From Ulva prolifera (lineage: Eukaryota; Chlorophyta; Ulvophyceae; Ulvales; Ulvaceae), in the NCBI GenBank assembly GCA_023078555.1, contig CM041199.1:6639315-6703314 (forward strand): a stretch of 64,000 nucleotides of DNA. Direction: 5' to 3'. Numbering within the stretch: the first letter of the stretch is position 1; every line of letters begins with the position of its first letter. The notes under the pieces were generated by a model. The model was not told the origin of the DNA and did not search any database. It saw nothing but the letters and a program-made list of their open reading frames with translations. Made by a program: the position numbers and the translations under genes. Of this stretch, positions 26,716 to 61,066 are shown in pieces.

Positions 26716-27967
26716 CAAGTCTGATTCACTTCACTTGTCCTTTGACCACTGTCTAGTCGTCTGTGCACTATTGTCTGCCAGACTTCTACCGGAACCTCGT
26801 GAGGCCAAGGTGGTGTTCGAAAGTGACACCCCCAGCGTATAAACACTGGGGGCGGGCAAGCAGAACTGCAAGGGCGCACCATGGCCAGCTGCTGCGGGTT
26901 GTCGCCCCGGTTTGTCGCGGGCATACATCACGGCCCCTGCGGCGACCACGAGGGGATCAGGATTCAGGATATCTGCGATAGTGCAGTTTTCGAACGCCAG
27001 GCTCGCATTCAGACCCGAGACGTGCACTGCCCCGACCAATGCTTCCCATGGCCAGGCCCCGATTTCTACCGGCGGAAGGTCACCCGAGAGTTCGCGGAAG
27101 ACACACGACTTGAAGTAGGCGGTGCCGTACAGGGCCATGACCACCCTCCGGTAGCTCGACTCGCCCTCAAGAGCATTGAACACGCAATCTGCAGACGACA
27201 CACGCATGCTCGTCATGTGCCCCGACCAGCCCGGGCGGGCATCGGAGAGTGCCATTGCAAGTTTCTAGAGGACAGAGGCTAGACAGAGACCTAGGCATCC
27301 AGGATTTCGCCAGCAATTAAGCACAGACTTGTGCTTAAAATGCCGGTGTTCTAGAGATCTCAGCTAGGCTGTTCATCCTGCAACACGCTTTCGGAAGCGT
27401 GTGACAGGGTGAGCAGCCCAGCTGACAACACCAGTCTCACAGACGGCAGTTACGCCCACTTCTGAGGTGCCAACAAATACCCACAGAGAGCGGTGTGCGA
27501 AAGTCAACTGCACAGATGTTCCGCTTGTGCCCGCACCTTGAGCATAAAGACCCCCGATGTTTCTGAAAACCTGCACGGCGATCCCGTTGGACTCGCGGGC
27601 GCCTTGCACGGCCGTGCTGGTCACGCAACCGGTGCCGAAATCCTGTAACCAGAAGGCCATTGAGCGCCGCGTGCCGTTGCGTGCCTGGACGTGCCCAGCG
27701 AAGTGCCCGACCAGCGCAGTCCATGGAGCGCATCGACCCACAGCCACGAGGGGTCCACCAGGAAGAGGTCACCCGAGGTGATGTTGACGCAGCGGGGGGC
27801 CTGCCACGGTCCCCCTTCGGTGATGTTTAGGCCGAATGCCTCTTCAGCGATGTCCCCGCGGGACCCCGGCGGGGAGGGGGTCCATGCATTAGCCCTGCAT
27901 GCTCCGCCACAACTCCGAAATCCGAGGGAGTCCCTGATGCAAATTAGCAAGACCGTGTTCTTCCCAG

Positions 27968-28068
27968 CAGTGTTGGGTCATCGGGCCAATCACAAAGAAG
28001 AATTCCGACTATCCAGGTCTATTTTTTGGGTGGCAGTCCTGAAAATGCTTCAAAGCGACCCAACACTG
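27968..28068 (+). mobile_element. hAT-like MITE, copy in M1 intron 6
   Basis: 101 bp with termini CAGTGTTGGGTC and GACCCAACACTG in perfect inverted form. It is flanked by the perfect octamer CTTCCCAG at 27960-27967 and 28069-28076. This is the cleanest copy in the window. Confidence 0.9.
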
Positions 28069-29404: not shown

Positions 29405-29495
29405 TGTGTCATGCTGTAGTTACATGATGTAGCTACACGATGTAGTTACATGATGTAGCTACATGATGTACTTACATGATGTATACTACGTAGTT
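29405..29495. repeat. Tandem repeat in M1 intron 4
   Basis: About six units of 13-14 bp, GTAGTTACATGAT with small changes. Confidence 0.8.
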
Positions 29496-29612: not shown

Positions 29613-32031
29613 GCCAAAGACTGAAGCCCGGCATGGAGCACATCAGCAATTGTTCATGCATGCATGTATGTGTGCTCCGTGAACCTCTGCAGGTTTCCAA
29701 CACATGAAGAGCCCGCGTGCTTCCAGTGCAAGCTTGTGCTCACAAGATACCATCGGCAAAGGCTCGGAGGAGGACTCACCAGGACGGCGAGGGCCGCGGT
29801 CGTGATGCCGGCGGTGATGAGACCGTTGAAGCGGTACAGCCCAGACACCACATCAAAGTTCAGGAAGGTGGGCCGCTGCCGGATGTTGGAGAAGGTGCAG
29901 TTCTGTAGCACGATGGAGGAGCTGAACGCGTACACCAGTGGGGTGTTCCCTCCCACACTGTCAAAACATGGACTCTGCATACATGCACCAGGCCTAAATT
30001 ACCGCAGCGCCTTTTTGGTTTAGCAAAAGCAACACACGCTTTTGCTTTTTCTTCTTCTCTTAGCACGCTACTACCGCACAAGCATGTGATGTGATTCTAC
30101 GCGTGTACCCTAAACCGTATGCTATACTGCAGCCCTTTGCAAAATGGCTACGTTGGCGTGCACACACACAGCTGATCACACTTGCATATGACACATGCAT
30201 GCACCTTTCTCGGTGAACCTTTCGGGTACACAACATCCCGCTGCGGTGCAGGTCAGCGTGGGCCCGGGCCGTCCCTGCCGCCATATGTCTGGCAGCACGG
30301 CTGGGGGTTTGCTGTTCCACACTGGATATCGCTCTGTCTCCCTGAATTGTGCATCGATGCACATGCATGTGTTGACAGAAGAGCTGCTGCTACTGCTTAA
30401 GCTCGGTGAGGATAGTTCAGCTCTCCTAGCCGTGTATGGTAGATGCAGCACAACAACATTAAGACTCAGTAAATCCACATTTACTTTAATTTATTTCGCA
30501 TATTGCTGGGGTAATTGACACCGCTGGACACTGTGTATGCCAGCAGGAAAGTTTAAATTTTCCGCACGTGAGTGCCGATCCTCCGCCTTTGTCCTTGTAC
30601 CAACTGGCTGCTGCAAGCTACCTTCTAGCCTCATGAGCGCAGCCACACAGCCGAGATGGCGCACCTTGCATGAGCGCCTGCGCACCGTCTACGACAGACA
30701 GTGGAGTAGTGTTGGCCCCAGGGGAGCCTTGCACGGTCACACGGGTGGCGTACAAATCCGCCAAGCCCGGCACAGTGATCGCGTAAGACTGGAATTAACG
30801 GGAGGGGCGGACGCGGAGGTAGAGGCCGTCCATCCAAAGCGGCTGTGGCACGATGAACACGCTGTGATCGCATACGATGACACATTGCGGAGACCGCCAC
30901 AATGCGAAGGTTGGGGCTGGCAGGCCGAGTGCCGAAGCTGCAGGGGGTGGGAAGGTGCACTTTCCCTGCATACCAGCGGTGCGGGCCTCGTGAGATGTTT
31001 CCTCCACTTGGACGGGGGAACTGCCCCTACAACACGCAGCATGTCATATTATCTGACATAGATTGCAAGGAAATGAACGTTTTGTAGCGCTGAATTGATT
31101 GGAAGGATTCAACCAACGAGGCGAGCCATGAAAACAGCCACCACAGCACAGGCCACAGAGACTCAACATAGCCTGCATTGAAGGACGCACGCGTATGGGT
31201 TCAAGGAAACACTCGTATGGATATGGCGGATGCCTTGAAGTCGCCAAGGGCTGTTGCGACCAGAGAGGTATTGGAGTTGAAGGCAAGTGGCAGGTCAGTA
31301 AGGTCCACGTGGGACTGGACCAGAATGTCCTGCGCCCTGGACGTCATTGCAGCTTGTAATTTGGCCACTGAGGTGACTGCTGTAATATTCGCCTGCTCGT
31401 CTGCAGCTGCAGGTCCTTGGCTCTCTGCGTCCAGTAGAAGACGGGCACCATGCTGAATCGGGTTCTCGCTGGCCTCCACACGACTGCTCTGCACGCAAAT
31501 CCGAGAACTGACAGTGCGAAGATATTTGAATGGGCCAGAGACGCAAGCAGCGCCCGGTATTTGGTCGACTCGAGCCTCGCGCTGCAGCAGCATGGCCAGC
31601 AATGGCAACAGCAATTGAGACCATCGTGATGCATCAAATGCACCGCACGGCACATACAGGCCTGCGGATTATTATTCACAGGGTGAACGGAACATTACAA
31701 TGGTGAGAGAGAGCATGTGTCGTAGATGAGCACCGCTGAGAAGCTGCGAGGCTGCCAATTGCTCTGCGAGCTTCACCACAGCACCTAGCCCGAGGGCATC
31801 GGCTGGAACTTTGCTGGAATAAATATCAGCCATCTCAACGTTTACGTACCGATTGCCTGATTCCATAATACTGGAGATTTATGGCGCACAGAACGACTAG
31901 CGCGAGCAGCAACACGCGAACTGCCTGGACCATCGCATTCCGGCAAGGACATCGCTTCCCAGCGTCACGCCATCACGAGGCTTTCAATAAAAATTTCCTT
32001 TCCAGTCTGCCATTTGTGACGTGAACGGGTC

Positions 32032-33437: not shown

Positions 33438-33940
33438 GTGACAGTACACAACACACTGCCAACAGGGGCCAGCATAGATCTCAGCTCTGCTCTGCAGGAA
33501 TGCCCCACAGTATCTGGAAAATGGATGGCGCATTCAGATCTGCTCGAGGTGGTTCGGGCGGTATTGACGTTCCGGGTTGACATTCTAGCACACCCCCCCA
33601 AGGCAGGCTTGTCAGGGCTGACGCCCGCATGCATTCAGCTGCCGAGGAATCGTCGCCAGCTGCTGCCCATGAACGGCCCCGCTGCCGAGCACACCCCCTC
33701 GCTGCAGCCGGCGACGCTGCCGCCACGCAGGCTGCTGCGGGGCTGTCGTTTGGGCCTGCGCCGACAACCTGATGAAATCCAGACTTACCCCGGATCAGCA
33801 GCCTACTTCAGCGGTGTACATCATGTGAACTCTCGATCCAGGATCTCGGTTCTGGCTGGGGCTCGCGAACCAGACCCCCGGGATGTGGCCCCGGACATGC
33901 ATATCCCGCTCCGAGGTCGTGCGTGCGAGGGCGAGCGTAC

Positions 33941-34042
33941 CAGTGTTGGGCCCTTGGGCCCGATCATGTGTAACAATTGCAAATATTCAGGTCTAATCTC
34001 TGGGTGGCAGCCCTGGAAATGCTGCAAATCGACCCAACACTG
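33941..34042 (+). mobile_element. hAT-like MITE, intergenic copy
   Basis: 102 bp with termini CAGTGTTGGG and CCCAACACTG. The perfect octamer GAGCGTAC flanks it at 33933-33940 and 34043-34050. Confidence 0.9.
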
Positions 34043-37401: not shown

Positions 37402-40400
37402 ATGGCGTTGAAAAATCACATTTTCGATAGGCTAGGATTGCTGCATGCTTGTCGGCTTCTGCTGGCGTGTCTGGCGCTGTTTGCAGGCCTGGGAGAGGCC
37501 TTGCACAGCAAACACTCACTCGTAAATGGCCACGCACTGGTACGTACGGCCGCAGTGCAGCCCTGTTTTCTAGATAACACCTTTTGGATGCCCACATCCT
37601 TGTTGGTCTCCGGATTGTCCACATGCTAGGCGCTGAGCACTTCAGACTCGCAATGTTCGTCGATCCGGATCCGTGCTCGAGGTGCACACTCCTATCCGAA
37701 CCTCCCACGCAGCTTGAAGGCATTGTACATGCTATATAGGGGTCAGAGTTTGACACTGCGGCGTTGGCATCCCGCCGCCTGCTGCTGGAAGCAGACTCCG
37801 TGGCTCGTGCGTCAGCGTCCATCACTGTCGTGAACACAGCCAGCCAGCTTCAGGCCGCTATCGTAGCCAAGGCCCAGGACATCGAATTGCGAAGCCATGT
37901 TGACATCTCCGCGCTGGGCCTGGTTCGCGGGTCCAATGCTTCCTTCGTTCCCATTGCTCTCGGCGCTGTGGAAGGCACACGCAGCATTCGGGTGTGTTTT
38001 CCTTCCAGCCCTTGTAAACAAAGACGTATTGCATCACATATGAGGCCACGCTGGTCACTGTATCGGTGCATGATCAGTAGCTTCTAGCCCAGGGACTGAG
38101 GAGCACACCGATGCAGCTGCCCAGTGTCATACGTGTAGACGACTGTGGAAGCTTTGGCATCCAACGAGCTATTGCAAATTTGCCATTTCCTTCTCGTGAC
38201 ACATCCTGTTTACAGTGACATTGATTTGCTGTGTCTGCTTGACGATGTTCGCATCGCCAGTCGAGAGTCTCGAGGCTTGGCCTCAACAAGTACAGCTCCA
38301 TCTGGGCTCATTTGTCTCAGGCTGCGCAGCAACAGCTAGGCCTGGGTAGTCACAATGCCTGATGTCACACAGTGATGCAAGACGGGCAGCACTGTACCGG
38401 TTTTTGTTGGCTACATGGTCTCCTTACACCTGGCAAAAACGCCATGTGCCTCGTATGGCTGACCAAGCCTGGGTCTCAATCGCCGAGTCCGCCTGCCGGC
38501 CCTTATTCGAACCCCTGTCCTGGTGTATCCAGTCAGGACGCCCGATTGGCCGGGGCACACCGCCCGATCAAACGCACACCTGTAGCCACAAGTTCCCTGT
38601 GGCCACGTCCGTGATGCTCCAAGGACCGACCGCGGCTCTGCAGCAGCCTGCAAGTGACGCTAGCTAGAACATCATGCATGTGGTGCAGGGCAACTGCAGC
38701 ACCCCGCCGCCGCCGCTCTCATCCTTCGGCATCTCCGGCCCGGCCTTCCAGTGGCAGGCGCCGCAGTGCGTCATCGTGTCGGACCACGGCAGCCTCAATG
38801 TGCAGAGCGCCACGTGGCTGGACGCCCTCTACATCCGCGCCAAGCCCTCGCCCGTGTCGATCTACCTCGCGCTGACCGTCAGTGCCTCAGCGGTGGTGTA
38901 CGGCAGCCGCCTGACGCTGCAGGGGGACGGCCACTGGAACACGAGCAGTGTGATGGTCACGGGAGGCAGCCGCGCGTACGTCGAGGGTGCGGGTCGCGGT
39001 CGAGCCTGCATGAATCGATGCTGCCTGTGTGAAACGGTCGAGCCTGTGCGATGCTCGAGCCTGAACAGGCTCACACACATGTGAGAAGTTCAATGTTAAA
39101 AGGCGCTGTCGACACCTGAGACACTTGCGAGCTGGTTTTTGTTGCTCAGTTTTCTAACTGCGAGTTGTGTGAGCCGATCCAGGCATGCATCGTCTGTACC
39201 TGAGAGCATGCGGTGGCAACTCGTTTAGCATTGGGTGCCTCGTGTTTGCACGGCGAGCGTGGTCTTTTGTGTTGCAGCGAATTGATGTGTGAAATATGTT
39301 TCGACATGTGTCGCAGTGGCGGTGCTGTTCGGCACACACGCACTGATCAAAATACACTCTTCGATCACTGCTGCTCACTGAAGTTGTGTTTTTTGCATCA
39401 AATTCTAGGCAGCTCAAGCTGTCTCAAGAACCACGTAAACGCACACCAGCGCTCATGCAGACAGCGTGTTCCTGGACTGCGGCGGGGAGACACAGTCCTT
39501 CACGGCGCTCGACTCGTCGCTCGTGTTCAACCGCACGAACTTCACCAACGTGGTGCAGCAGCCGGCGGCGGTGGCGCTGCACCCGCTGGCCGCCGGGGGG
39601 CCCAACGCCGGGGAGTACGGCGTCAACGGCCTGTTTGTCGCTGAGAACCCTGCCGCCAGCGTCCACGTGCAGGTGCGGCGGCCGGCGACCGCATTTTTTG
39701 GTGCATGTTTGCAGAGACGCGAATACTATAAGGGGTAGTGCCGGAGCTACAAATGTGCTTTCAGTTGTTTTTTGGTCACAGGACCCTGGTCACCTGCAGT
39801 CAGCCTGTCTCACACTCGGAGGGCACGAACTCCCATGCATGTGTGATGAGGCCCCCACAGCCACAGTCATACACGCACACCCAGCCCCACTGAAAGCCCG
39901 CCCTGTACAGGACAGTGTGTTTGACAACGTGACGGTGGTCAACACGTTCTTCCTGGTCGGAGGCGCCTCCGCCGCGGCGAGCGGCAACGCTCCCGCAATC
40001 GAAGTGGCGTATGACTTTGAGTCCCGCGCAGAGGTGGCTGTTCCGCAGCTGGGTGGAACGGCGGTTGCAGTCGGGGGGCAGCGGCTGCAGCCGCTGCGGC
40101 CAGACGATAAGTGGTGGACTACTGTCAAGGACGTGCGCTGCTGTGCCTTTGTCGCATTCACTGTTGGGTCGCTTTGCAGCATTTCCAGGTCTGCGACCTA
40201 GAAATTAGACCTGAATATTCCGAATTGTTGTATATGATCGTGCCCGACCTAACACTGGTCCCGGTCCTGCTCCGGGCGTTGTTTTAATAGCCATGCAGCT
40301 GCATGCCTGAGTATCGTTGTTGGGTTGCTTTACAGCATTTTCAGGGCTGCCACTCAGAAAGTAGACCTGCATATTTGGAATCTTTCTATGTGATCGGGCC

Positions 40401-43400
40401 CGGTGACCCTACGCTGCTGAGCGCGAGCCCGTGTTGTCTTCCGCAACATTTCGCGGATGTCATGCCTAGCTACAGCCTCACACCGCAGCAATCTTGTCAA
40501 GCGCTTCAGTGATTTGAGTTACAGAACCACATGGACAAGTCAGACAGTGCGGTGCAGTGATTACGTCAGCCCGCATTTTGCTCGGTACTATCAGCCTGCA
40601 TTGTGGCTGAAGCGTGCACTGCATGCATGCATTTTTACACAGCGTGTTTGACCGCGACTCGGTCGGCGACTGCCCATCAAACCAGCTTTGCTCATATATG
40701 CTGCATGCAGGGCTTGCTGTCGATTGTCCAGGTTCAAATCTGTTTTCAAATTGTTTCGGTCCGCATATGCTCGCGCCTACGTGACAGGAACGGCACGCAT
40801 CCGAGTATGCTACAGCAACGTCCAGATGTCACTTGATCCGCGGCTGCCTTCCAGAGAATTCTCAGAGCGGCCTCCCGTACGTATCGGCCGGAGCTGCCGC
40901 AGCTGCCGATGGTGCCGCCGTCGCCGCCGCCGCCGGTGGCGGCCACGGCGCCGCCGCAGATCGCGGCCGTGTACACCCCGGAAGACTTCCAGAGGGCCTT
41001 CCACGCGGGCGTCCGCGACATCGAGCTGCGGGCCCACATGGACATGCAGCCGCTCCAGGCGAAGGAGTCGACGGCTGGAGGGAAGCTGTGGAGTAAGCGG
41101 TTGGGCGGCGTGAAGCCGACGACGCGGTCAATCCGGGTGCGCACGTTCATCTCCTCGCTGCATGTGGATGTGCTGTCCGCGGAGGACCTGCTTGGGCTGG
41201 TGGCTATCGGTGGTTTTTGCCGAGTCTACTTAATAAATCAGTGGAAACTGAAGTTCGTAGCATGCTGCGGGCATGCATGGATGCATCAGCTCAGGTCGCT
41301 GTGGTAGTTTGTTGAGTCCCTCAACAATGCAGTTGCAGTGTCTTTGAGGCTATCTTGCCAAAACACCACACGTGGGACGGACTGAAGGTGTGGTCCAGTG
41401 TTCGCCATGCAGCATTGCTGGGGCTCCCATCCGGAAAGTAGACCTGAGTAATCAGAATTATTCAGTGTGATTGGGCCCCACGACCCAACACTGGTGTGGT
41501 CATGCGCCGGAACCACCTCACTGTCGAGCTCCGGAGCTGCTGGTCACTCAGCAGCATCGATATCCTGACCTACGTATGCTCATTGTGATGTGAATCCTTC
41601 GTGTGATGTCAAGGATGTGTCCTCTACCTGCCGGCACCCAGCCATGAATGTCCCTGACCGCACCATTCGCGTGCATGTCTCACTGCAATATGCTTGTAAG
41701 GCATCCTGCACCATATGCACTACCATTGCAACAGCTCCGTTGAAATTTCATCTACGGTACTGTAGTATGAACTCCGAAGTCATGCCGCATCTGCCTGCGG
41801 CAGTTGGCTGCGACCGAACTGTGCTTCGTCCATGCATGCGTGTGTGTCCACATGCTGACTTCGTCTCGTCCACCACGCCGTACCGCACAGGTGCAATTCT
41901 AACCACCTCAAACAACAGCATACTGCAGGCGGTATGTGTGCGCACCATACACATGCATGCCAGTGTCTGCAGGGCAACTGCACAGCCCCCCCGCCAGCCA
42001 GCCTTATGTGCGCATGCCAGTGTCTGCAGGGCAACTGCACAGCCCCCCCGCCAGCCAGCCTTAAGTGCGCACCACACACATGCATGCCAGTGTCTGCAGG
42101 GCAACTGCACAGCCCCCCCCGCCAGCCAGCCTTATGTGCGCACCACACACATGCATGCCAGTGTCTGCAGGGCAACTGCACAGCCCCCCCCGCCAGCCAG
42201 CCTTATGTGCGCACCACACACATGCATGCCAGTGTCTGCAGGGCAACTGCACAGCCCCCCCCGCCAGCCAGCCTTATGTGCGCACCACACACATGCATGC
42301 CAGTGTCTGCAGGGCAACTGCACAGCCCCCCCGCCAGTCAGCCTTATGGGCGCACCACACACATGCATGCCAGTGTCTGCAGGGCAACTGCACAGCCCCC
42401 CCACCAGCCAGCCTCAACATGGACCGCCTCGGCACCGTCACCTCCCCGGAGCCCTGGGCGGCCCCCCGCTGCCTCGTCATCGTCCGCGACGAGGCCTTCC
42501 TCACCGACTCCGCGCACCTCTGGCTGGACTCCCTGCACGTGCAGGTCGTCAGCGGCAGCCTCGAGGCGCCGCGCCTGATCTGGGTGTTCTGGGACGCGGC
42601 GCTGTTCATGACCAACACGGTCGTGCAGGGCAATGGCGACGTGAACGCGCTCGGCCTCGTCGCCTCGTACTCGCGCCGCGGCGCCTACGCACGCGGTGCG
42701 GCCCGTCATTGCAATGCTGTGCCACGTCTGTACAAGGAACCCTGACGATCCTGGGTTCTTTGGGCTGTGCAGACAAGTAGCGCCGCGCTTAGCAGGCGCA
42801 GGTACCAGTCTGCAGTCCCTACAGTATTTTCGTACAGCGCTCACTGCGCGCATGAGCGGCGTTAATCCCGCAGCAGGAAGCCTGGTGGACTTTTAGCAAT
42901 GCAGGAAGCCATCTCAGGGATCAAATCTTTGCCTCCACAGTTGATGCTACATGACTCTACACATGCAGGTCTGCGGACTTTGTTTGTGTATGTGGCGCGC
43001 CAGCACACAGAGCCAAATCTCACAGAGCCAAGCCGCCGAATGAGCAGAAGCGCATGCATGTGTCAACCAGTTCAACGTCCTAGCTTCACATCTGGCCATG
43101 TAGCAACCATTACAACAATCAATAGTGAACATGCCACATTTGCGTAGCCCGGGATGCCGGCCCCATCATGCCACTTCATCATCAGGCAATCGATTCCTGT
43201 GCACCGCATGCAGGCTGTGCTGTAACATTGAAAGCAACGTAAATTTGGCTTTTCTGAGCCGTATCCTGAAGAGGAGATTGACGACTCCGATTTAATGGGA
43301 CCACATCTGCCGAGTCACGTGCAGGCTGCGTCTTCAACTCGCTGCTAGGGCACCGCCTGGAGGGCATGGCCCTGCTGGCCTTCTACTCCCCCCTCTCCTT

Positions 43401-46400
43401 CGAGTCATGCACATTCCGAGCGCTGTCGGTGGCGCCAAAGCCTGGCCCCATCGTGGCGTTTGGGCGCGTGTACGGCGCGCTCCAAGCCAACGGCCTCAAC
43501 GCGACATTGGCACTCAAGAACTGCACGTTTGATGACATCCTGGCAGCATATCCCATCGGGATCACAGACGCAGAGGTCTACAGTGACAACCCTGCCCAGC
43601 AGGTACTCTGGCACCACATACGCCTACTATACAGTTGTTCTTGTCTTCCTGGTATTGTGTGTCATCAACTTGTGTGGCCGCTTGTCTAGATCCGCCGTCC
43701 GCCACTGCGGGCGCCGATTGCCCTCCCCCCGTGGAAAGCGCCTGTATCAACATGCATGACAATCGCACACGGGGTCAGGGCAGCCAGTGTACATACATAC
43801 TGGTTTAATTGTCTGTGCAGCCACAGACTCGGCAGTTTGTACAGTGCGTTCTGGCATTTCTGCTGTTCTCTCGTCTGATGAGCTCCAGCTCCGAAAGTGA
43901 CTCGAGACCACCACACGCATTCAGATTAATAAGTAAATATTTACTTTGCTGTACACGCTGTACCAGTGTTGAGTCGCCAGGCCCGATCACATAGAACAGT
44001 TCCGATTGCTCAGGTGTTTTTTTTTTCTCCCAATTTCGGGATGGGAGCCCCATCAATGTTGTATGGCGACCTAATACTGCTGTACATGCAAGTGACCTAC
44101 CCAAGGGCCGTGTGCTCATCACGCGTTGTGCTGCAGGCTTTCCGGTCGTTCAGGAGGGCAATTAGCACGCCGCTGCCGCTGTCTGCGATCGGCGGCCCGG
44201 ACGAGCGGGCTGGCCCGCCGCCAACAGCAACGGACCCCTGGTTCGTTGCCCTACAGCAGGTGCCCCCCCTCCGTGAAGTTTCCGTGGCGATACCTACTCT
44301 CCTGTGTGACATGCATTGGTCTGATCTGAGCTTGCGTCATAAAACCCCCGACTGTTGCTGCACATCAACTGCAGGGTCATCATCAAGTACAATACTATAC
44401 TATACGGTAGTAGTTAGCACTGCTGCTGCCTCTCGTGGACATGCTCAAGGTGTGCCTTGACACGATCAGATGCGGACGTGTGCCATGCAGACCCTATCGT
44501 CTCCCGCACCTTCCGCGTACCTCCAGGGCTACTTTGGCCCAGACTCCGAGGAGCGTCCTGCAGCTGCACCGCCACCACAGCAGTCCCCTGCGTCACCTCA
44601 AACACCGGACACCGGCGTCGCGTTGCCTCCGTTCTCCCCCACCCTCACACCCGCACCGCCAGGCAACAGCAGTGGTGATGAGGCGCTGTCAGTGGATGGC
44701 CCGGGCCAAGTCGCGGGCCGCCGGGAGGTCGGGCCGTCTGATGACGGCATGGCTACAGGTGCGATCGTTGGGATCGTCGTCGCGGCTTGCGCAGCGGTGT
44801 GCGTTGCTCTGCTGATAGCTGGGCTGTACATCCGGAGGCGGCGGCAGCGGGGTGAGGGCCAGCACGGATCCGGGCTTGGGGTCGCCATGGTACGCTGCCA
44901 GTCCCAAGTTGCTGTTTGACTGGTGTGATATCAGATCATGATGGGCTCTGCTGTCGCCTCGGTTGCCCACATCTGAGAATTGTGTCGCACTTTTTTTTGT
45001 TTTGTGCCCAGTCTGCACCGGACCAGACGCCACGTGTATGTACGTACGCATGAGCACTCCTGGCCATCTGCAAAAATGCATGATCGGTGTGCTTCTTACC
45101 GCCTACAGCCTACTGATTATACGTGCACCGCACACAGAGTGCCTGTGAAAGGTCTGCACGGGGACCAAGGAGTGTTGACGGCAATTCTCAAAGTCAAATG
45201 CTTCTGCATCGAGCGCTGTCAGCATGCATGCTGTCATGCATCTGAACGTGCAGCATTACTACTGACAGTATGCTTCAGCTGCCTAGGATGCTGAGCGATG
45301 CTTTCTCAACGCTGACGTGGCGTGGCGTCGCTCACAGGCGCCAGGGTCAACGGACGCGAAAGCTTCGGTGCCGGGTGGCAAGCAAGGCTTTGAGGCTGGA
45401 GCGCCGTCGGGACCGGCCGCGCCCTGGCTGCCCAATCCCCCACACAACCCACACTGGAGCCCCCCTCCCCCGCACCCCGGCTTCGGCGTGGCCGCGCAGC
45501 CGCACGCGCCGGGGATGGGGTTCCCGCCTGGCGCCCCCGCCGTCCCGTCCGCGGGATCAAGCGGGCCCGGCAGCGCGCAGCAGTCGGGCGGCGCGCCGCA
45601 CATGTCGGTGCACACGGATAGTGGCACCGGCACAGTTTTCACCCAAGACACGTGGTCGGACTTCCAGAGGTGCGGCCCTGCTGTGGGCTGTGTGGCGCCC
45701 ATCACGCATGCATGAGTTGCGCACCACACATGTGGCACCACCCAGCCCACACATCCATACACATCCCTGTAACCACATGATGTGTTACAAGGATAGCGCC
45801 AGCGCCTGTGTGGTGCGCATGTGTGGGAGATATGCCGTTTACATGGTATGCTGTATCTCAGGAGCAGATTTCCCCAAGCTTAAGATCTATATATGTTTTT
45901 TGGGGCAGATACTAGTACTTGGTGCCCCTTAGCTAAGATAGATGCTGTCAGGGGCACAGGCGTAGGCATGAGGACACCGTGATACCACGCCATCTGCACA
46001 GTAAAGTATAGTAAATCTGGATTTACATAGCAGTATCCTGAAGAGCACGTTGACAACTGTGTCTGAACGGGGCCACATACCATCGTGAGATGAAGCAGAA
46101 GCGGACTGGTCCAGTACTGGGCGGTGGTCTATTGATCCATGCCTTGTCATGCACAGCACCATACAGGCCCTGAGCATCTCCTGAGGCGCCCTGCAGATCG
46201 GAAATTATTATGTTACATTTGGCATGGTGTACACCATCGACATGTACAACATAGTGTAATATCTGGCCTTCCGAGACAAGATTGCAACCCTCGTAGCTCA
46301 AATATTTTATTTAATGCATATGCATGACTGTGAGAGAAGGCCCGCGCGTGCCGGGTCAGTGACATCGACGGTGGATATCCGCTGCAACCTGTGCTGCTGC

Positions 46401-48764
46401 GGTGCAGAGCAGCTGGCAGTGCCACGTCGCCGATGGACGAGCTCGAGACGGCGCTGGACGCGATGTGCGGCATGGCGGAGCCCTTCTTCGGCCGCTACCA
46501 GCTCCTCTCCGCCGTCGACCGCCGCGTCGGCGGCCAGGGCCTCGTCCAGTTTGCCAGCATCGCCAGCTCCAAGCAGACTCCAGAAAACGCCAGCGAACAG
46601 GTGCGCCAGAACTGACTCGCGCATCGACGCCTGCGGACAGCACGGACAGGAGCCGTTGCATTCTTACCTCCCCGTCCTGCTGTCTGTGACAGTCCAGTGG
46701 TGTAGCGGTCATCACAGAATCTGCTTCACACGAGCGATTCCTTTGTGGTGTCACCCTGTGCTTGTTCGCTCTTGTGTAAGAACACCACACGCTCGTTTTT
46801 GCCTCGGGCCACATGAAACGTGCCGATCATGCTGCCTCTGCAAGTTATCACCTGCGAGTTTCCAAGCAGAGGATGCGCCAGCAGCATGGATGTGTACGGC
46901 TGCGAGGCACTGTCGCTTCATTTTGGAAGTGCTGCGTGTGTAGGCGGTGATCAAGTTCTACATGGACCTCCCGGCATTCCGCAGCGAGCGGGAGCTGTAC
47001 ACCGAGTCCCGGCTGAAGGCGATGATGCCCGCCACCCTCGCGATCGAGGAGAACGCTGACGGGGCGCACCGCACGCCGTACGGCTACGTGTTCCCGCCGT
47101 TCGTCATCATCGAGCGGGGCCAGAGCCTCGACGAGTGGGCCAAGCGCAACGCGGCGGACTTCATCACCGTCTTCCAGGTGTGCCTGCACGCTAGCGCTTC
47201 AGGAGCGCTCCACATCAGCGCAGCTGCTGCACAGGTGTATGCGCTGCGGCGCTGCAACGGCGGCGTGGTCTCCCGCCGTGTCGGGGGCCAAACTACATCT
47301 TCAAGTTTTCCTGTCGGTGGATGTCTCGGTCTCCTGTCTCTTCGCATTTGCAGATGGCGGGTTTCGATACTGGCGCGTGTTGGGATGTTGTGGTCGGCAT
47401 ACATGCATGCTAGGCCACTGGCAAGTGGTACGCCGTCGACACGTGCAACACACTGTATGTGTGGTCCCAGAGTTTTCAGATTGGTCATATGTGGCGGAAC
47501 CGCTTGCCAGCAGCGGCGCAGCATGCTCGCCTTGTCGGACCAGGACGGACCGCGCCCACTCATGCCGAGCTGAGGTGCTGCGGTACCACTATGTAGGATA
47601 TTGTCCACTTGGTCAGAGCCTGATCTTTGTTTTCCCTTCTTTTTCTTAACGCTGCAGGGACACTGCTCACCTTTGTGTGACAAGGATAAAGCCAGCGAGA
47701 CCAGTAGCACCGCAGGTCATTAACAGGGCCACCACACACTCAAACAACCATCAACAGGAAACACAGACCAACACACCCATGACTCCTCATCTCTGGATAG
47801 CAAAGCATATATGCTAGTCGTCGCTGTTGCCATTCGTCAGGCTCCCGAGCCAGCCCGTGGTGCAGTGCATGTTTCGCTCTCCAAGCAGTACTGCCGCTGC
47901 AAGGATGTATGACGTTACGGTGTGAATTTTGCTTCTGCCATCAGCCAGGGGTGAGGCTCGTGAAGCGCAAGCGTGTTGCGTGCAGGCGCTAAGCCATGCT
48001 GTGCGTGCCTTGATGGACCTGCACAGCTGCGGGTACGCCCACCGGGACATCAAGCCCGGCAACATCCTCCGCCGCCCGAAACAGCACGACTGGACGCTCA
48101 TCGACTTTGGCTGCGCTGCCCAGATCGGTGCGACCCTCTGCAGTGGCTTCGACTGAAACATCTGTTCTTACATCAGTAGAAACTGCTCTCGATGAAACAG
48201 GGAGTCTCTGTAGCACTCTTCTCAAACAGTCCTTTCAGCTGAGCACTGTGCACAGGCCGAACACATGTATCCGGCCTGCTTGATGCGGTATCGCCTGATC
48301 GTGCACGAGTCTTTTGACAGTGTTGCATGTGCCCGCCTGCAGGCTCGACCGCCGGGCTGATGTTTTCTCTAAAGTACGCCGCACCGGAGGTCGTCCGCGC
48401 GATTGAAGCCGGAGCTCGGACGATCGTCGTAGACGCGGCGGTGGACATCTGGGCGATCGGCGTCATCGCCTTTGAGCTCCTCACCGGCGAGCGCGCCTTC
48501 CCGGTGCACGGCCTGAGTGCGGAGCAGTCCGAGGCGGCGGCGCAGGAGGCGATCGCGGGGCGGGTGCCGCTGCCGTGGGAGGGCAGCAGCGAGGTGGTGA
48601 GGGCGCGGCTGGAGGCGCTGCGGGGGATGCGGCGCACGGTGCTGCAGTGCCTGGAGCGGGACCCCGCAAAGCGGCCGACAGCAGAGGCGCTGCTGCAGTC
48701 GTGGGACCAGAAATTCGACAACATGCAGAGCCGCGGCACCTTCCTGAACCCGGGAACCCGCTGA
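37402..48764 (+). CDS. P1: receptor-like Ser/Thr kinase, intact 15-exon gene (about 1276 aa)
   Basis: Exons: 37402-37539, 37749-37991, 38689-38986, 39461-39672, 39911-40132, 40855-41136, 42383-42695, 43325-43602, 44137-44259, 44491-44889, 45338-45669, 46408-46600, 46944-47177, 47986-48127, 48343-48764; 3831 nt, open throughout. The first ATG (37394) stops at once, so 37402 is used. Signal peptide within residues 1-46. Ectodomain 47-703 holds two modules, each ending in a Trp-rich helix (DDKWWTTVKD; TDPWFVALQQ). Pro/Ser stalk, transmembrane helix about 793-817, then IRRRRQR. Pro/Gly-rich linker 837-946. Kinase 947-1276: GGQGLVQFA, VIKFY, HRDIKPGN, DFG, APE, DIWAIGV, DPAKRP. A TGTAA at 48887-48891 could be the chlorophyte-type poly(A) signal. 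Exon 7 has extra acceptor copies upstream. Confidence 0.88.
40159..40257 (-). mobile_element. hAT-like MITE, first copy in P1 intron 5
   Basis: Termini CACTGTTGGGTC and CTAACACTG. Flanking octamers GTCGCATT and GTCCCGGT match at 5 of 8. Confidence 0.7.
40315..40416 (-). mobile_element. hAT-like MITE, second copy in P1 intron 5
   Basis: Degenerate termini CGTTGTTGGGTT and GACCCTACGCTG. Flanks share CTGAG. It lies 57 bp from the previous copy in the same orientation. Confidence 0.65.
41396..41493 (-). mobile_element. hAT-like MITE, copy in P1 intron 6
   Basis: 98 bp with the perfect octamer GTGTGGTC on both sides (41388-41395 and 41494-41501). The right terminus CGACCCAACACTG is intact. Confidence 0.88.
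41951..42412 (+). repeat. Seven-copy 70/71-bp minisatellite spanning the P1 exon-7 acceptor
   Basis: Each unit holds ACATGCATGCCAGTGTCTGC, then AG and the first exon-7 codons GGC AAC TGC ACA GCC. The exon-like starts fall at 41973, 42030, 42100, 42171, 42242, 42313 and 42383; the last is the true exon. Spacing is 57, 70, 71, 71, 71, 70. The 70/71 difference tracks a run of 7 or 8 C. Units alternate in reading frame because of this, yet the last several stay open into exon 7. Confidence 0.92.
43238..43314 (+). repeat. Interspersed repeat family B, copy abutting P1 exon 8
   Basis: It runs GTAAATTTGGC, TGAGCCGTATCCTGAAGAG, GACGACTCCGA, GGGACCACATCTGC and ends about 10 bp before the exon-8 acceptor at 43323-43324. 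Confidence 0.65.
43964..44079 (+). mobile_element. hAT-like MITE, copy in P1 intron 8
   Basis: Termini CAGTGTTGAGTC and CGACCTAATACTG, with a T-rich expansion inside. A shared GCTGTAC lies at both flanks. Confidence 0.65.
46001..46080 (+). repeat. Interspersed repeat family B, copy in P1 intron 11
   Basis: It contains GTAAAGTATAGTAAATCTGG, CAGTATCCTGAAGAG, TTGACAACTG and GGGGCCACATAC. Confidence 0.6.
47668..47785 (+). repeat. SINE-like repeat, degenerate copy in P1 intron 13
   Basis: It contains TGACAAGGATAAAGCCAGCG, GTAGCACCGCAGG and ACACAGACCAACACACCC. Confidence 0.5.
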
Positions 48765-50071: not shown

Positions 50072-53000
50072 ATGCTGCGGCGTCTTCGCTCAGTCGGTGC
50101 GTTGCATGTCGTGGTCGGCCTCCTCGTATCGCAAGGCTTCAGCAGCGCAGTGCCGACGGCCTACGGGCAGGTATGGAACATGCACCCGCTGAGTTGGGTC
50201 CACATTCTACATCAACGTTTGAATTGTGTCCGGCGTGCTGTCGCCTGGGCAGCGACACCGTTGCCGTGTTCATATACACTTCTCTCCCGCGCAACTCCGT
50301 TCCTGGGGCACACTCAACCAACGCTTGAATCATTCTCATGAGAAGCAGGAACGAGGTGCTGACGAGAGTGTTCTTCCATCCCGACGACTTCTGGTCAACG
50401 CTGGCCCTCGGGCCGAAGCAGCAGCGTCGGTCACTGTCGTCACAACAGCCAGGCAGCTGCAAGCCGCAGCCCAATCACGGGCGCAAGACATAGAGATCAG
50501 AGGCCATCTCGACCTTTCAGCACTGCCCCTTGCGACAACATTGAATTCCAGCTACAGTCCCACTGCCATCGGTGGTATCATCACTACTCGCAGCATTCGG
50601 GTGTGCCTTCCTGGTCATCCTCACTGCCTGTGCTACAGAAGGCCGCTGCAAATCCCTTGTGACTTCGTTTGACCTCAGACGATGCAATAGAAGAATCTTT
50701 GATTCCATCCCTGCATCCGCCTGGCTTTTCTTTTCACAAGGACAAAGGGATGAAAGCCAATAGCACCTCTGAAAAGACAAGCAGCTTAAGACCTTCCTCG
50801 AGGATCCGCTTGGCTATGCGTGTATGTTGAAGTTTGGCCCAACGTGATCATGCTCGAGCGGCGTTGCACATGCAGGGCAACTGCACGAGCCCGCCACCCG
50901 CCATCTCGTCCTTCGGCCTCTCCGGGCCAGACTTCCAGTGGCAGTCCCCGCAGTGCGTGCTCGTGTGCGACCATAGCGTCCTCATCACATGGAGCAACAC
51001 ATGGCTCGATGCCCTCTACATCCGGGCAAAGCCATCGCCGTTTTTCGTCTGGTTGGGCCTCGAAGTCAAGGAGAATTCCACGGTGTATGGCAGCCGCCTG
51101 ACGCTGCAGGGCGACGGGAACTGGAACACCAGTGGCGTCATCTCCAGAGGGAAGGCCTCGGTACAAGGTGAAGTTCTCCCAGCGGTCCTTCATACCGGTA
51201 GCTGCTCTGCAGTGGTACCGGGCCAGATGGCAGGCTTGGCACGCCATTGTTACGCATTCCATGCGCTTCTCCGTAGCCCCCAGCCGATGTGGGTGCACTG
51301 GCAGTCTGTCTGCAGGCTCAATGTGCACAATGGTCAATGTACATGTGTGGCCACAGTGTCATACGGCGGCCCTGCTGACCTGCCAATTGCCTTCAGCCTC
51401 TGTTGGCCCGGGATTCCTGGTCCAGTGTTGCGTTGCTTTGCAGCATTTCCAGGGCAGAATTTAGAACTGAATATTCGGAATTGTTACGTATGACCGGGCC
51501 TGACGACCCACCACTGCCTCGGTCGACCCAGGGCCTCTGCATTGCCAGCTTGTTGCAAGCAGGTGGAGCCCTGCCAAGACAGCGCAGTGTTGTGATCGGA
51601 TGCAGGCCGTCACCTGCCCGCCAATGCATGCAAGAGGCATATGCCGTGAACGCTTTTGACTGCTTTTCTGTACATGTGGACCTCCACAGGTCTGAGGCTG
51701 GAGTGTGGTACCGCTGCTCAGAGCCGCTGATATCATCGATGCAGACAGTCTGTTCCTCGACTGTGGAGGCGCGACTCAGCTGGTTGGCGCATTCAATGGC
51801 TCGGTCGTGTTCAACCGGACGGCTTTCAAAAATGTCGTGCAGCGGCGGGCGCCCCACGACTTCCAGCCCAAAACGGCAGGGGGGCCTGGCGGGGCGCAGT
51901 ACTTCGCCAATGGCTTCTTCGTGGCCACAGGCGACACCTCCAGCATCCTGGTGCAAGTGCGCGCTGCAGTCGACTGACGTCATGACGCTGTTCGATGCCA
52001 GTCGCAGCTGTGCCTTCAGTCACATGCATACTGTTCTCAGTCAAACTGCGAGTTGCGCCGATGCAACTCTCAAACTTCTTGTGTCTGGATGCCCGCACTT
52101 GATTGCAGCTGCAGGTTGCTAATTGGTGGTGTGCAACAGGCCCAGGATGACCATGCACACGTCCATTCCATGTCAAGTTCACGATGTCTGTCTCGATGAT
52201 ACGGCGCAGCATGTGATGACGACCTGGCACGGCGCATGCAGGACTGTGAATTTGTCAACGTGACGGTCGAAAACATGTTTTGGGTGGACAACGGCGGGTA
52301 TGCCGCTGGCGGCAACAACACGGGGGCGCCAGAATCTGTGTACGACTCCGATAGGCGGGCCGACGTGCCTCTCAACCGGCTTGGGCCTGTGCCGCCGGCG
52401 CACGTACAGCCACTGCGGCCGGACGATGTATGGTGGCTCACTGTTCGCAAAGTGCGGTCCGTTGCTTTTGAAACACCGTGAAAGAGTACTGCGTGTGATC
52501 ACGCCTTGAGCTCGTGCAGCTGGCACGACAAATAAAGACTTATCAAAATGGTGATCTTATATATGCTTATGCATGTATACGATGCATGTATACGATCACC
52601 ATGCATGGAGCATAGACCCGTGGAGGCCGCGGCTGTGTCTGTGCAGCCGGTGCTGTTGGTGGCTGCGTGCACTACCGTGATGCGCACTGCATTTCCCCTG
52701 CAATTTTCTACACGCATGCCAGTGTCGGAACCCAAAAAAGCACGGTTGTGTTGGGTAACTAGTGAGGTCGTGCTGCAGAGGCTGAGTGAGGTGAACGCCA
52801 GCAGCTACACGCCAGAGGCAGAGCCCCCGCCACTAGCGCAGCCTCCGCCGCCGGTGAACGGCACGGACCCACCGCAGATCGCGGCTGTGTACACTGTGGA
52901 GGACTTCCAGAGGGCCTTCCATGCGGGCGTCCGCGACATCGAGCTGCGGGGCCACATGGACTTGAGGCGAGCCGTGATGGCAACCACATACTTTAATGGC

Positions 53001-56000
53001 TTTGTGCAGTCGGCCCCCCTCGGCGGCGTGCGCAAGGCGACCCGCTCCGTCCGGGTGCGGACTCCAAGCCTAGCATACGTGGCATGCATGTGCGCTGAGT
53101 TGCGTTGGATCGCGTTTCTTTGGTTTTGGGTACGATCAAAACGCAATTTTCAATTCGAACCGTGTGATCAGCTGTTGAATCGCACGATTATTCCGGGTTG
53201 GACCGTGACTGGAGATCTCGAGCTCTGCGATGTGATGACCAGACAGCACCCATGGCGTCTCCGGTGATACAGTGATGCTGTGGGCAAGTCTGCGCAGCGG
53301 AAGTGCAGATTCCTGGGTCTGCACCCCCGGCCGCCCCCCCGCACAGAACATGCAGGTGCCCCACATGCGCACACTTCCGCATCCGTAGCAGATCTGCTGT
53401 ACCCGGCATATGCATATGTGTTCCCTTTGACTCGGAGTTGTCAATGTCCAATAGGGTACGGCTCAGTAAGTTCAGATTTACTTTACTTTACCCGCATGGA
53501 GCACCATGGAACCGGCGCAGATCTATCACACCAGGTACCATATAAGATGGACATCTCTTAGACACAGTGTGTGCGGCGGAGGCCACCCCGTATTCCCACT
53601 CACGCCCTGTGGACATCATCCAACATCTCGACTCTGAGTCATACGCAAGCCCTGTGGATATCACCCCATATTCAAGCTCACAGCCTGTGGATGTCACCCG
53701 ATATTCCGGCTCACACCCTGTGTATACCATCATGATGTGCAGGGCAACTGCACCTCGGCGCCGCCGCCAGAGCTGGACCCGGGGTCGGTGGCCACGTTGG
53801 TCTCACCCGAGCCCTGGGCAGCCCCCCGCTGCATGCTGCTCGTCAAGCACCGCACCTTCCTCCTGGACGCAGCTCACCTCTGGATTGATTCCTTGCACAT
53901 CCAGGTCGACAACATGACCGACGCCATTCCCTTCGTGTTCGTGACGGGGGGGTCCTCTGCCCTCTTCCTGACCAATTCCGTTGTCCAAGGCGATGGGCAA
54001 ATTGGCAGCGTGGCGCTTGAAACGGTCGGGTCCCGCCTTGGCGTATATATCCGTGGTGCGCCAGCTGCCTTGCCTACCGGTACCTTGTGCGCTGTGCACA
54101 TCTTGCAAGCATGATGCCGTTTCGTCACCGTGATGTCGGCGGTGCTCGGCAAGTCGGTTCAAACCAACTAATTACGTGTATCGTGATTGGGGCGATCACG
54201 CAGAAGTTAAGCCGAGATGTAATCGACCGTGCTTGGTGTGGTGGCCCAATCCCAAACACGCAGCTATTGACAGCTGAGCTCGGTCTCCACTTCTTCATTG
54301 CGGGTTGGGTCAACAATGTACAGCTTGAGGGCGCTCTCCGGCGACCCTCGACATTCTCAGGCAGCATGTGCAGATGTCGCTGAAATGTTATGGTTAATTC
54401 ATATCTTGGCAAGATCTTGCAACCGTTCAGAGCTCCTGCGCTATGAGGGGCCGCGGGCAATTCACGTTAATTACAGTGAGCGTTCGGCTGCGAGCAACCG
54501 GTATAATATGATGTATATCGTTACGTAGATTCATCGATATCCCTGAATAGCGTCTTCGACTTGGCACCCCTGCAACGAAATGCATGCCAGCCTTGTGCTT
54601 TGACGTGCCGGACGTGGCACACATGATAATGCGCATAGCTGTATCATGAGCTCATCGTTCTTGCCCGGCAAAGCATATGCATGTGCCGTACGAATCTCGA
54701 GCAGCTGCTGCTGGGTCGAGATTTTTTAGATGTATTTGTCTGAACCCATTTACTCTCTTCTGTGACATTCTTGCTGCTTTGTTGCCTCTGCCTCCGAGGC
54801 AGCTGCGTTCGCTGTCTTCAATTGCAAGTCCCCAGGCGATCTCACGTGTACCTCTACCACGCGGCATCTTGCACGTGTTTGGCCGGGTGGTCGGACCCCA
54901 GACATCTACACTTGTTGAGCTCGTAAACCCGCATCATCTGACCCTTTCGTGCCAGTGGGGCCTGCGCAGTGACGCCATGCTCGAGCTCCGAGGAACATGG
55001 CTGGGTGTGCCGCAGTTTTGTCTCGCATTGCTGAACTTGGACCATAACAGATCCACATTTGCTCTACGTGGTCACAAAGAACACAATCGATGGGGCCAAC
55101 TAATCCAACAATGGTGTGCAGGAACAATATTTGATTCCTTGTCAGGATTCGACCCGCAAACACATCCACCCGCAATAATGGCATTCTATTCGCCAGCTTT
55201 CTTTGAGACGTGCACATTCCGGAAACTGTCAGTGGCACGGGGATCGGTTCCCCTGGAAGCACGAGACAACGTACTTGGGGCTATCCACGCCTCGGGGTTG
55301 AATGCGTCCCTGGCGTTTCAGAACTGCAGCTTTGCTGACATCCGATCTGAGCATCTCATCAGCGCACTAGAAGGCTCCGCAGTTTACAGCGACAACCCCG
55401 CCCAGACGGTGCGCCTTTAGCCCGCAAGTCACCGAAGAGCACCACTGCCATCTCTTAGGAAGCTCCACACCAGCTACGTCATGACGGGTGCCAGGGCAAT
55501 GCTCGACACCCGTGCTCATGTACATGTCCCAAGGGCAAGATGGTGATTATGATTTGCACCGGAACGGCGTGAGTGATGAAGATGATGTCAAAGGTTCGGG
55601 CGCAGGTCGCGCCCCGTTGCCACCGAGCCATGTAGATGTGCTGTGCAGGGCGTCTGGGCGTACAAGCGGGACCCTTTCGTGCCTAAGCCACTGTCTGCGG
55701 TCGCGAGCCGCACTCTGCGCCAGGGGCCGTTTCTCACCTCCACAAACCTGTGGTTCACTGCACTGCAGGAGGTACGTGGCCCCTCTCTTGATCCAACAGC
55801 GCAGCGGGTATTTCCGCATGTAGTTACAAAGGACAGAGGCCGGGCAGCGAGCCATTGCCAGGGATGCACACGCAGATCCACTCTCGCAGTCATGGCACTA
55901 GGCCGGGTACGAGCACGTACCACAGCTCGGCCGGTGATGGCACGTATGTATGCCTGATTACATAGCCGTATCCATTTGGATATTGACAACTCCAAAATCT

Positions 56001-60210: not shown

Positions 60211-60970
60211 CTAGTACAATAATTGAACCGGCTAGTATACTACGTAGCTATTTCAATTCTCGTGCTCTGCAGCATTCCTCGCTTGCTGTGTGTACCATTC
60301 AATTGATGCCGTAATGAACTACACACAGCACACAGTGAAGGCCAATCCACATCTATTGCAGATTTAGTTTAGAGTATACGGCGTTTTAGAGGCGCTGCAC
60401 GCACCAGTGATCATGACCATGAGCCTTTTGTGTTGGCAGCCCCGCATACCGAAGCTGGCGGATGTAATATGCAAGTCGGTCCCACAGAGCTTGTGCCCTG
60501 TCGTTGCTACTATGTAACATTGCATATCATATGATGCTGGCATGCCGACGGATGCACTGCCTTCCACTCCGGGCAGACGCCTCCAGCCCTGTCCGGCAGC
60601 AGTGCATCATGATGAAAGCGTGGCTGTGTTGCAAAGTCAACACTTCCATGCATATTGTGACGCAACAACAATGGGCCACACCCAGCGCTCCAGCACGATT
60701 TCCATGCTCTCGGTATTCGATGTGTGTAATCTCGGGCCTCTCTCCGCCTCAATGTCTGCACGGGTGCAAAAATACCTGCATTGTCCCGGTGTTTTGGCAG
60801 ATGTCTATCTACCGATGGCGAATGATGCCTGGAGCCATGCACAGAACTGACACAGCTTTGAGGACATTGACGGCCTGACCAGTTGTGCTCTGGATGCAAC
60901 AGGGACTCTGTGTGGCAACCTTCCCTCGAATATCCTTTCATGTTCAGCTGCAGCTCTGTTTACTGTTCAC

Positions 60971-61066
60971 CAGTGTTGGGTCATCGGGCCCGATCATATA
61001 GAACAATTCCGAGTATCCAGGTCTGATTTTTGGGTGGCAGCCCTGAAAATTTATGCATTGACCTGA
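60971..61066 (+). mobile_element. hAT-like MITE, truncated copy next to psiP
   Basis: The left terminus CAGTGTTGGGTC and the body are intact, but the right terminus is missing just before the psiP exon. Confidence 0.68.

Follow-up and report, generated by a model that had tools for sequence, protein, structure and literature searches.

Within a 64,000-nucleotide stretch of the Ulva prolifera genome (contig CM041199.1, here C4, positions 6639315–6703314; 'the window', whose own numbering is used below unless a contig is named), we analyzed a minisatellite that lies across the boundary between intron 6 and exon 7 of P1, a gene predicted to be a member of a receptor-kinase family. The array repeats the 3′-end of the intron together with the start of the exon and presents seven copies of one splice acceptor. 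We think it probable that this is a minisatellite of the 'mirage' type described in amphioxus (PMC3087553), in which a duplicated boundary has expanded, with normal splicing to the acceptor at 42383 and cryptic acceptors upstream. Most likely the array is a harmless but unstable repeat and not a device for varying the receptor.

A preliminary description of this sequence had reported a minisatellite repeating the end of intron 6 with the start of exon 7 to give seven acceptors, and this holds: CAG/GGCAACTGC (the slash marks a splice boundary) occurs as seven exact copies, with exon-first bases at 41973, 42030, 42100, 42171, 42242, 42313 and 42383 and acceptor-to-acceptor steps of 57, 70, 71, 71, 71 and 70 nt. 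CAGGGCAACTGC is likewise present as seven exact copies within 41970–42391. Tandem Repeats Finder (TRF) reports one array at 41955–42071 with a period of 57 (score 227) and one at 42012–42414 with a period of 71, 5.7 copies and 97% match (score 757); the left edge, read from the letters, falls at ∼41933. With the boundary set by homology, a full unit comprises ∼38 bp of intron end (to the CAG) and 32–33 bp of exon start. The unit length of 70 or 71 bp given in the description fits five upstream units but not unit 1, which is 57 bp long through a 13-bp deletion relative to the 70-bp form, while the run of seven or eight Cs, also noted there, indeed measures 7, 7, 8, 8, 8, 7 and 7 across the seven copies from 5′ to 3′. 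Units 3, 4 and 5 show no difference over 71 bp, and private changes occur in units 1, 2 and 6, with a T>A change in unit 2 creating TAA at 42062–42064 in the exon-7 frame and C>T and T>G changes in unit 6. The parts of the array are as follows:

41933..42414 (+): whole array including the left, intron-only edge (TRF 41955–42414; left edge from the letters)
41955..42011 (+): unit 1, 57 bp; acceptor CTGCAG/GGC, exon-first base 41973, C7, out of frame (+2)
42012..42081 (+): unit 2, 70 bp; acceptor 42030, C7, out of frame; its TAA closes the exon-7 frame upstream
42082..42152 (+): unit 3, 71 bp; acceptor 42100, C8; an exon 7 extended to it would be out of frame
42100–42135 (+): micro-exon candidate of unit 3, 36 nt, ahead of GTGCGC at 42136
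42153..42223 (+): unit 4, 71 bp; acceptor 42171, which as an extension of exon 7 is not in frame; micro-exon candidate 42171–42206
42224..42294 (+): unit 5, 71 bp; acceptor 42242, in frame, 141 nt, 47 amino acids, no stop; micro-exon candidate 42242–42277
42295..42364 (+): unit 6, 70 bp; acceptor 42313, out of frame (+1); GTGCGC altered to GGGCGC

The array thus has the defining features of a mirage that we tested: the tandem unit spans the intron–exon boundary, the center is homogenized and the edges are divergent, and the units hold splice signals (AG in 7/7 copies, GTGCGC in 5/6 upstream units). A coding tandem repeat would have a unit that is a multiple of three and an open frame, whereas here the units are of 70/71 nt and unit 2 contains TAA. 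In amphioxus, mirages duplicate the intron–exon boundary in the globin genes BflGb6 and BflGb9 and in Adh3 (PMC3087553). The BflGb6 units of 150–160 bp take in the 3′-end of the intron and the 5′-part of exon 2, two haplotypes carry 6 and 3 units, and reverse transcription PCR suggested regular splicing (PMC3087553); the Adh3 units measure 10–72 bp (via PMC3087553), a range that includes the P1 unit. Many amphioxus units hold AG/GT signals, and their clusters are homogenized with the boundary units excluded (PMC3087553, PMC3902484), so that the identical units 3–5 and differing edge units 1, 2 and 6 of P1 are as described for mirages (PMC3087553). The amphioxus TnC mirage is said to produce no aberrant mRNAs, and in PGBD5, which has imperfect repeats, an extra exon that one annotation placed inside the repeats was rejected by the authors (PMC3902484). 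This precedent points to regular splicing in P1, which differs from the amphioxus genes in belonging to a photosynthetic eukaryote, in encoding a putative receptor kinase and in being known from sequence alone. A search of the genome for chlorophyll a/b-binding proteins returned 38 matches, in keeping with a green alga. Boundary-duplicating minisatellites, described in amphioxus (PMC3087553), would thereby be extended to a photosynthetic eukaryote; the literature matches listed for our queries included no report of one in an alga, which is not proof of absence.

The frames reached from each acceptor were followed through three exons of P1:

40837..41136 (+): open frame of exon 6, with TRSIR as its last residues; donor CGG/GTGCGC at 41137, phase 0; 40837 is a provisional left limit for the exon
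42383..42695 (+): exon 7 (GNCTAPPPAS...), acceptor CTGCAG/GGCAACTGC, placed by homology with P2, P3 and P4; putative donor GCG/GTGCGG
43325..43602 (+): exon 8 (GCVFNSLLGHRLEG...), putative limits from homology; the paths from 42100 and 42313, shifted by +1, end here

Exon 6 (to 41136) was joined to exon 7, begun in turn at each acceptor and run to 42695, and to exon 8 (43325–43602), with exon limits that we infer. Entry at 41973, 42030 or 42171 leads to frame +2 and a stop within exon 7, and entry at 42100 or 42313 leads to frame +1 and a stop in exon 8. The acceptor at 42242 is the sole in-frame upstream site (1/6); the path from it is free of stops and adds 141 nt, or 47 amino acids, GNCTAPPASQPYVRTTHMHASVCRATAQPPRQSALWAHHTHACQCLQ. 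By chance, six random spacings would be expected to yield two in-frame acceptors, and one was found. With this count below chance, nothing suggests that the array has been kept as coding sequence, and the lengths of 57, 70 and 71 nt, the C7/C8 changes and the TAA in unit 2 likewise argue that it is under no coding constraint; on these grounds, with the units not being triplets, we rejected coding selection on the array. That a unit is open in all three plus frames is unremarkable, as the same is true of 17% of mononucleotide-shuffled units. Two statements of the preliminary description are narrowed by these frames. The units beside the true exon were said to remain open into it, and the exon-7 frame is open from 42065, but the nearest acceptor, 42313 (70 nt), is out of frame given the phase-0 donor. 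Use of an upstream acceptor was said to add a Pro/Cys/His-rich segment, and this is so for 42242, whereas the other 5/6 terminate prematurely, within exon 7 or exon 8.

Homology marks the acceptor at 42383 as the ancestral one. The paralogs P2, P3 and P4 hold the homologous exon, which starts with GNC (GKC in P4) after a phase-0 intron, the homologous exons of minus-strand paralogs begin at the same codons too, and the intron donor in P1–P4 is CGG/GTGCGN in phase 0. Across the genome (88.9 Mb, 44 contigs) this GNC exon type gives 62 matches at E ≤ 1, and our locus counts refer to the best 30 of the 62; the 31 best matches (down to E = 1.8e-4) comprise 30 on C4 at 6.33–6.72 Mb and 1 on C5. In the 30 oriented loci the intron 3′-end reads TGCAG/GG nearly always, with T standing at −5 in 28 loci, G at −4 and C at −3 in 29 each, and AG and GG in 30/30, two of the 30 ends having been scored after the start was moved to a nearby CAGGGC. 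The array exceeds what chance would produce: used as a query, it finds one place only in the whole genome, and a paired-acceptor pattern has 6 matches, all in the P1 array, with 0 for the reversed-pattern control. Each locus's own exon-start 18-mer (≤4 mismatches, ∼1.5 kb on each side) is single-copy in 29/29 other loci and multiple only in P1, in agreement with the earlier statement that sister genes have a single acceptor; in 2/29 (L007 and L028) the 18-mer lies 12–13 nt inside the exon, off the acceptor.

Several observations nonetheless weigh against regular splicing to 42383. Acceptors 3–6 are exact matches to the true acceptor for 33 nt on the upstream and 20 nt on the downstream side; the earlier description of the acceptors as near-identical holds, and the local sequence gives the spliceosome no cue for 42383; the choice must then depend on exon 7 itself, on distance or on kinetics. 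No branch-point consensus for the genome could be fixed from 30 introns, and a first-AG scanning model might therefore favor an upstream site. Directly upstream of the array stands an extra TGCAG/G with exon-first base 41929. In Caenorhabditis elegans, intronic minisatellites are suspected of influencing splicing, a minisatellite being enriched near multiply spliced exons (PMC4039745). Apart from these points, all seven acceptors are alike over at least 18 nt on the upstream and 20 nt on the downstream side, which makes P1 a natural test of spliceosome choice among like acceptors. A search for CTNAC in the 30 introns showed a weak excess between −40 and −21 (6 sites, among them one each in P2 and P3), and this does not decide which acceptor is used. 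The available part of a study of Chlamydomonas splicing (PMC2830987) contains nothing bearing on acceptor choice. In human duplicated genes, internal tandem repeats at exon–intron boundaries, with an average unit of 30 bp, can alter splicing (PMC2812944), a precedent that by analogy favors a splicing effect in P1; as in P1, these repeats lie at boundaries in recently duplicated gene families, but their effect is supported by transcripts, whereas P1 is one gene read from genomic letters only.

For the mirage-type array that we favor, the following history can be proposed. A tandem duplication in P1 would have taken ∼38 bp from intron 6 together with 32 bp from exon 7 into a single 70/71-bp unit, after which slippage or unequal exchange may have brought the copies to seven and homogenized the middle. 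The six upstream copies would sit in the intron, and 42383, which adjoins the only complete exon 7, would most likely yield the normal receptor-kinase mRNA. Leakage to the upstream sites would give mostly frameshifted transcripts that are probably degraded, and only 42242 could insert the 47-amino-acid Pro/Cys/His-rich segment, between TRSIR and GNC. Length polymorphism between individuals is plausible on this history.

The neighboring paralogs P2 and P3 have minisatellites near the same acceptor, built from sequences of their own that do not include it:

53650..53726 (+): P2 minisatellite, 33 bp × 2.3, stopping 16 nt short of the homologous acceptor, whose exon-first base is 53743
C4:6705090–6705231 (L003, L032): P3 minisatellite, 28 bp × 5.1, 100% match, stopping 14 nt short of the homologous acceptor

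Intron 6 of P1 has no match at E ≤ 1 to the corresponding introns of P2, P3 and P4, and the introns of P2 and P3 match each other over 60 bp at 77% (inside the repeats, 30 bp at 83%). Four TRF arrays scoring at least 100 occur in 83,686 bp, and 3 of them lie within 200 nt upstream of a GNC acceptor (p = 0.0008 for random placement, with 13 GNC acceptors taken and the first-module exon of P4 left out); the acceptors concerned are all second-module P acceptors, of which the 30 loci include 4 (p = 0.001), both tests being post hoc and P2 and P3 not being independent. The remaining 27/30 loci have no such array within 200 nt upstream of the acceptor. We regard this clustering as a lead: three adjacent paralogs with repeats at one and the same end of the intron would, if the pattern were genome-wide, suggest a local cause of repeat birth beside acceptors. 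As separate observations, the repeats of P2 and P3 both hold CTCAC repeatedly, which we take to be a possible branch-point motif (consensus CTNAC), and the sole other array scoring at least 100 in the 83.7-kb region is a 13-bp × 5.7 repeat, CATGATGTAGTTA, at 29410–29483.

Other readings of the array were weighed against a mirage with normal splicing. The array could be a source of receptor variation, in which 42242, or another acceptor after a change in C-run or copy number, is used often enough to matter and inserts, ahead of the GNC domain, the Pro/Cys/His-rich segment with its additional NCT sequon, repeat instability varying the length from one individual to another. The open path from 42242 speaks for this, as do the large, clustered exon family, the recurrence of kinase exons in neighboring genes, and an insertion point that lies ahead of residues 1–28 of exon 7, which are low-confidence and mostly coil in a modest structure model of the exon with a mean predicted local distance difference test score of 69.4. 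We consider it unlikely, given the one in-frame acceptor where chance would give two, a unit length at which most copy changes scramble the frame, the stop in unit 2, and the absence of a repeated acceptor from the 29 other loci. It is slightly less likely still that the units are nascent micro-exons on the way to intron gain. GTGCGC, the hexamer of the exon-6 donor, follows the acceptor by 35 or 36 nt in units 1–5 (it is lost in unit 6), so that by position and length each of these units could act as a 35–36-nt exon, and all 13 readable family donors of 14 inspected by eye start with GTG[CT]G; the three C8 units would each give an in-frame 12-amino-acid cassette, GNCTAPPASQPY, with introns of 247, 176 or 105 nt to 42383. 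A model of this kind has been proposed for amphioxus mirages (PMC3087553), and in a potato RdRp gene an intron was gained by tandem duplication of an intron–exon segment with activation of a cryptic donor, following the Rogers model (PMC4974935); there, as in P1, the duplicated segment carries the acceptor, splicing signals and a cryptic donor, but one duplication produced a spliced new intron, whereas P1 has seven copies. On the other side, the units have T or A ahead of the donor-like GT, against G in 10/13 family donors, which makes the units' GTGCGC weak donors; units 1 and 2 would give frameshifting 35-nt exons, and the intron from a unit micro-exon would measure only 35 nt to the next unit (105–247 nt to 42383 for units 3–5). 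Exons of 36 nt are usually recognized poorly.

Two further readings have less behind them. Tandem repeats are prone to assembly error, and the copy number could be wrong or inflated; the private changes of the units (the 57-bp unit, T>A, C>T, T>G and C7/C8) and the contiguity of the assembly make this quite improbable. Purposeful regulation of P1 splicing or expression, for example through unproductive splicing via frameshifted acceptors, would fit the premature stops from 5/6 upstream acceptors and the presence of repeats at the same acceptor in P2 and P3, but the latter have other sequences without the acceptor, and the 27/30 loci lack an array there; we hold this to be highly improbable. 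A broader proposal also strikes us as a long shot: that the intron 3′-end is an expansion hot spot common to three adjacent paralogs and that in P1 it has become an array of ready splice-site pairs, with in-frame 12-amino-acid micro-exons (units 3–5) and the in-frame 42242, where copy and C-run changes keep switching receptor isoforms on and off, a nursery of introns or cassette exons in progress.

Minisatellites sharing a motif with the P1 array occur elsewhere. A pattern of three TGCAGGGC gave 14 matches, 5 of them in the P1 array, and 4 for the reversed-pattern control; the pattern is therefore not specific. At C1:4910320–4910771 (L034–L038) there is a true minisatellite array of 74 bp × 7.2 (98% match), seven of whose units contain TGCAGGGC, and on C6 a 27-bp × 8.6 minisatellite with TGCAGGGC is a true array, which shows that such repeats are not peculiar to P1. 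By eye, no exon boundary was recognized in either, and the match on C7 holds no array of the P1 kind.

The kinase part of P1 lies downstream in the same gene:

47926–48156 (+): protein kinase open frame, Pfam PF00069 above cut-off
48318–48764 (+): protein kinase open frame, Pfam PF00069 above cut-off

A search of the extracellular exons found no Pfam match, the exon-7 family matched nothing among Pfam and PDB sequences, and the exon-7 structure model has short strands and was assigned to no class. The alignment of the exons in the window has invariant G1, C3 and P7 (9 exons; 2 of 11 were left out for stops). Since the tblastn queries were open frames by construction, matches to sister genes are no proof that P1 is intact. 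An apparent match between the P1 upstream frame and a minus-strand paralog at 21820–21631 was rejected as a low-complexity alignment with an internal stop. Two minus-strand paralog exons of the same type, at 27525–27836 (−) and 30666–30965 (−), contain an internal stop codon and are possibly decayed copies or cases of wrong exon limits. Rfam and tRNA scans of the window gave 0 matches.

A dispersed repeat was also seen in intron 6. A 150-bp query from it matches 11 other places in the 83.7-kb region, on both strands, over 76–110 bp at 68–78% identity; the repeat lies at 41402–41510 (in intron 6), 40169–40275, 40333–40419, 43962–44069, 27965–28058, 33939–34026, 8156–8244, 51418–51516 and 60968–61043, with more copies downstream. 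This repeat is perhaps a small mobile element.
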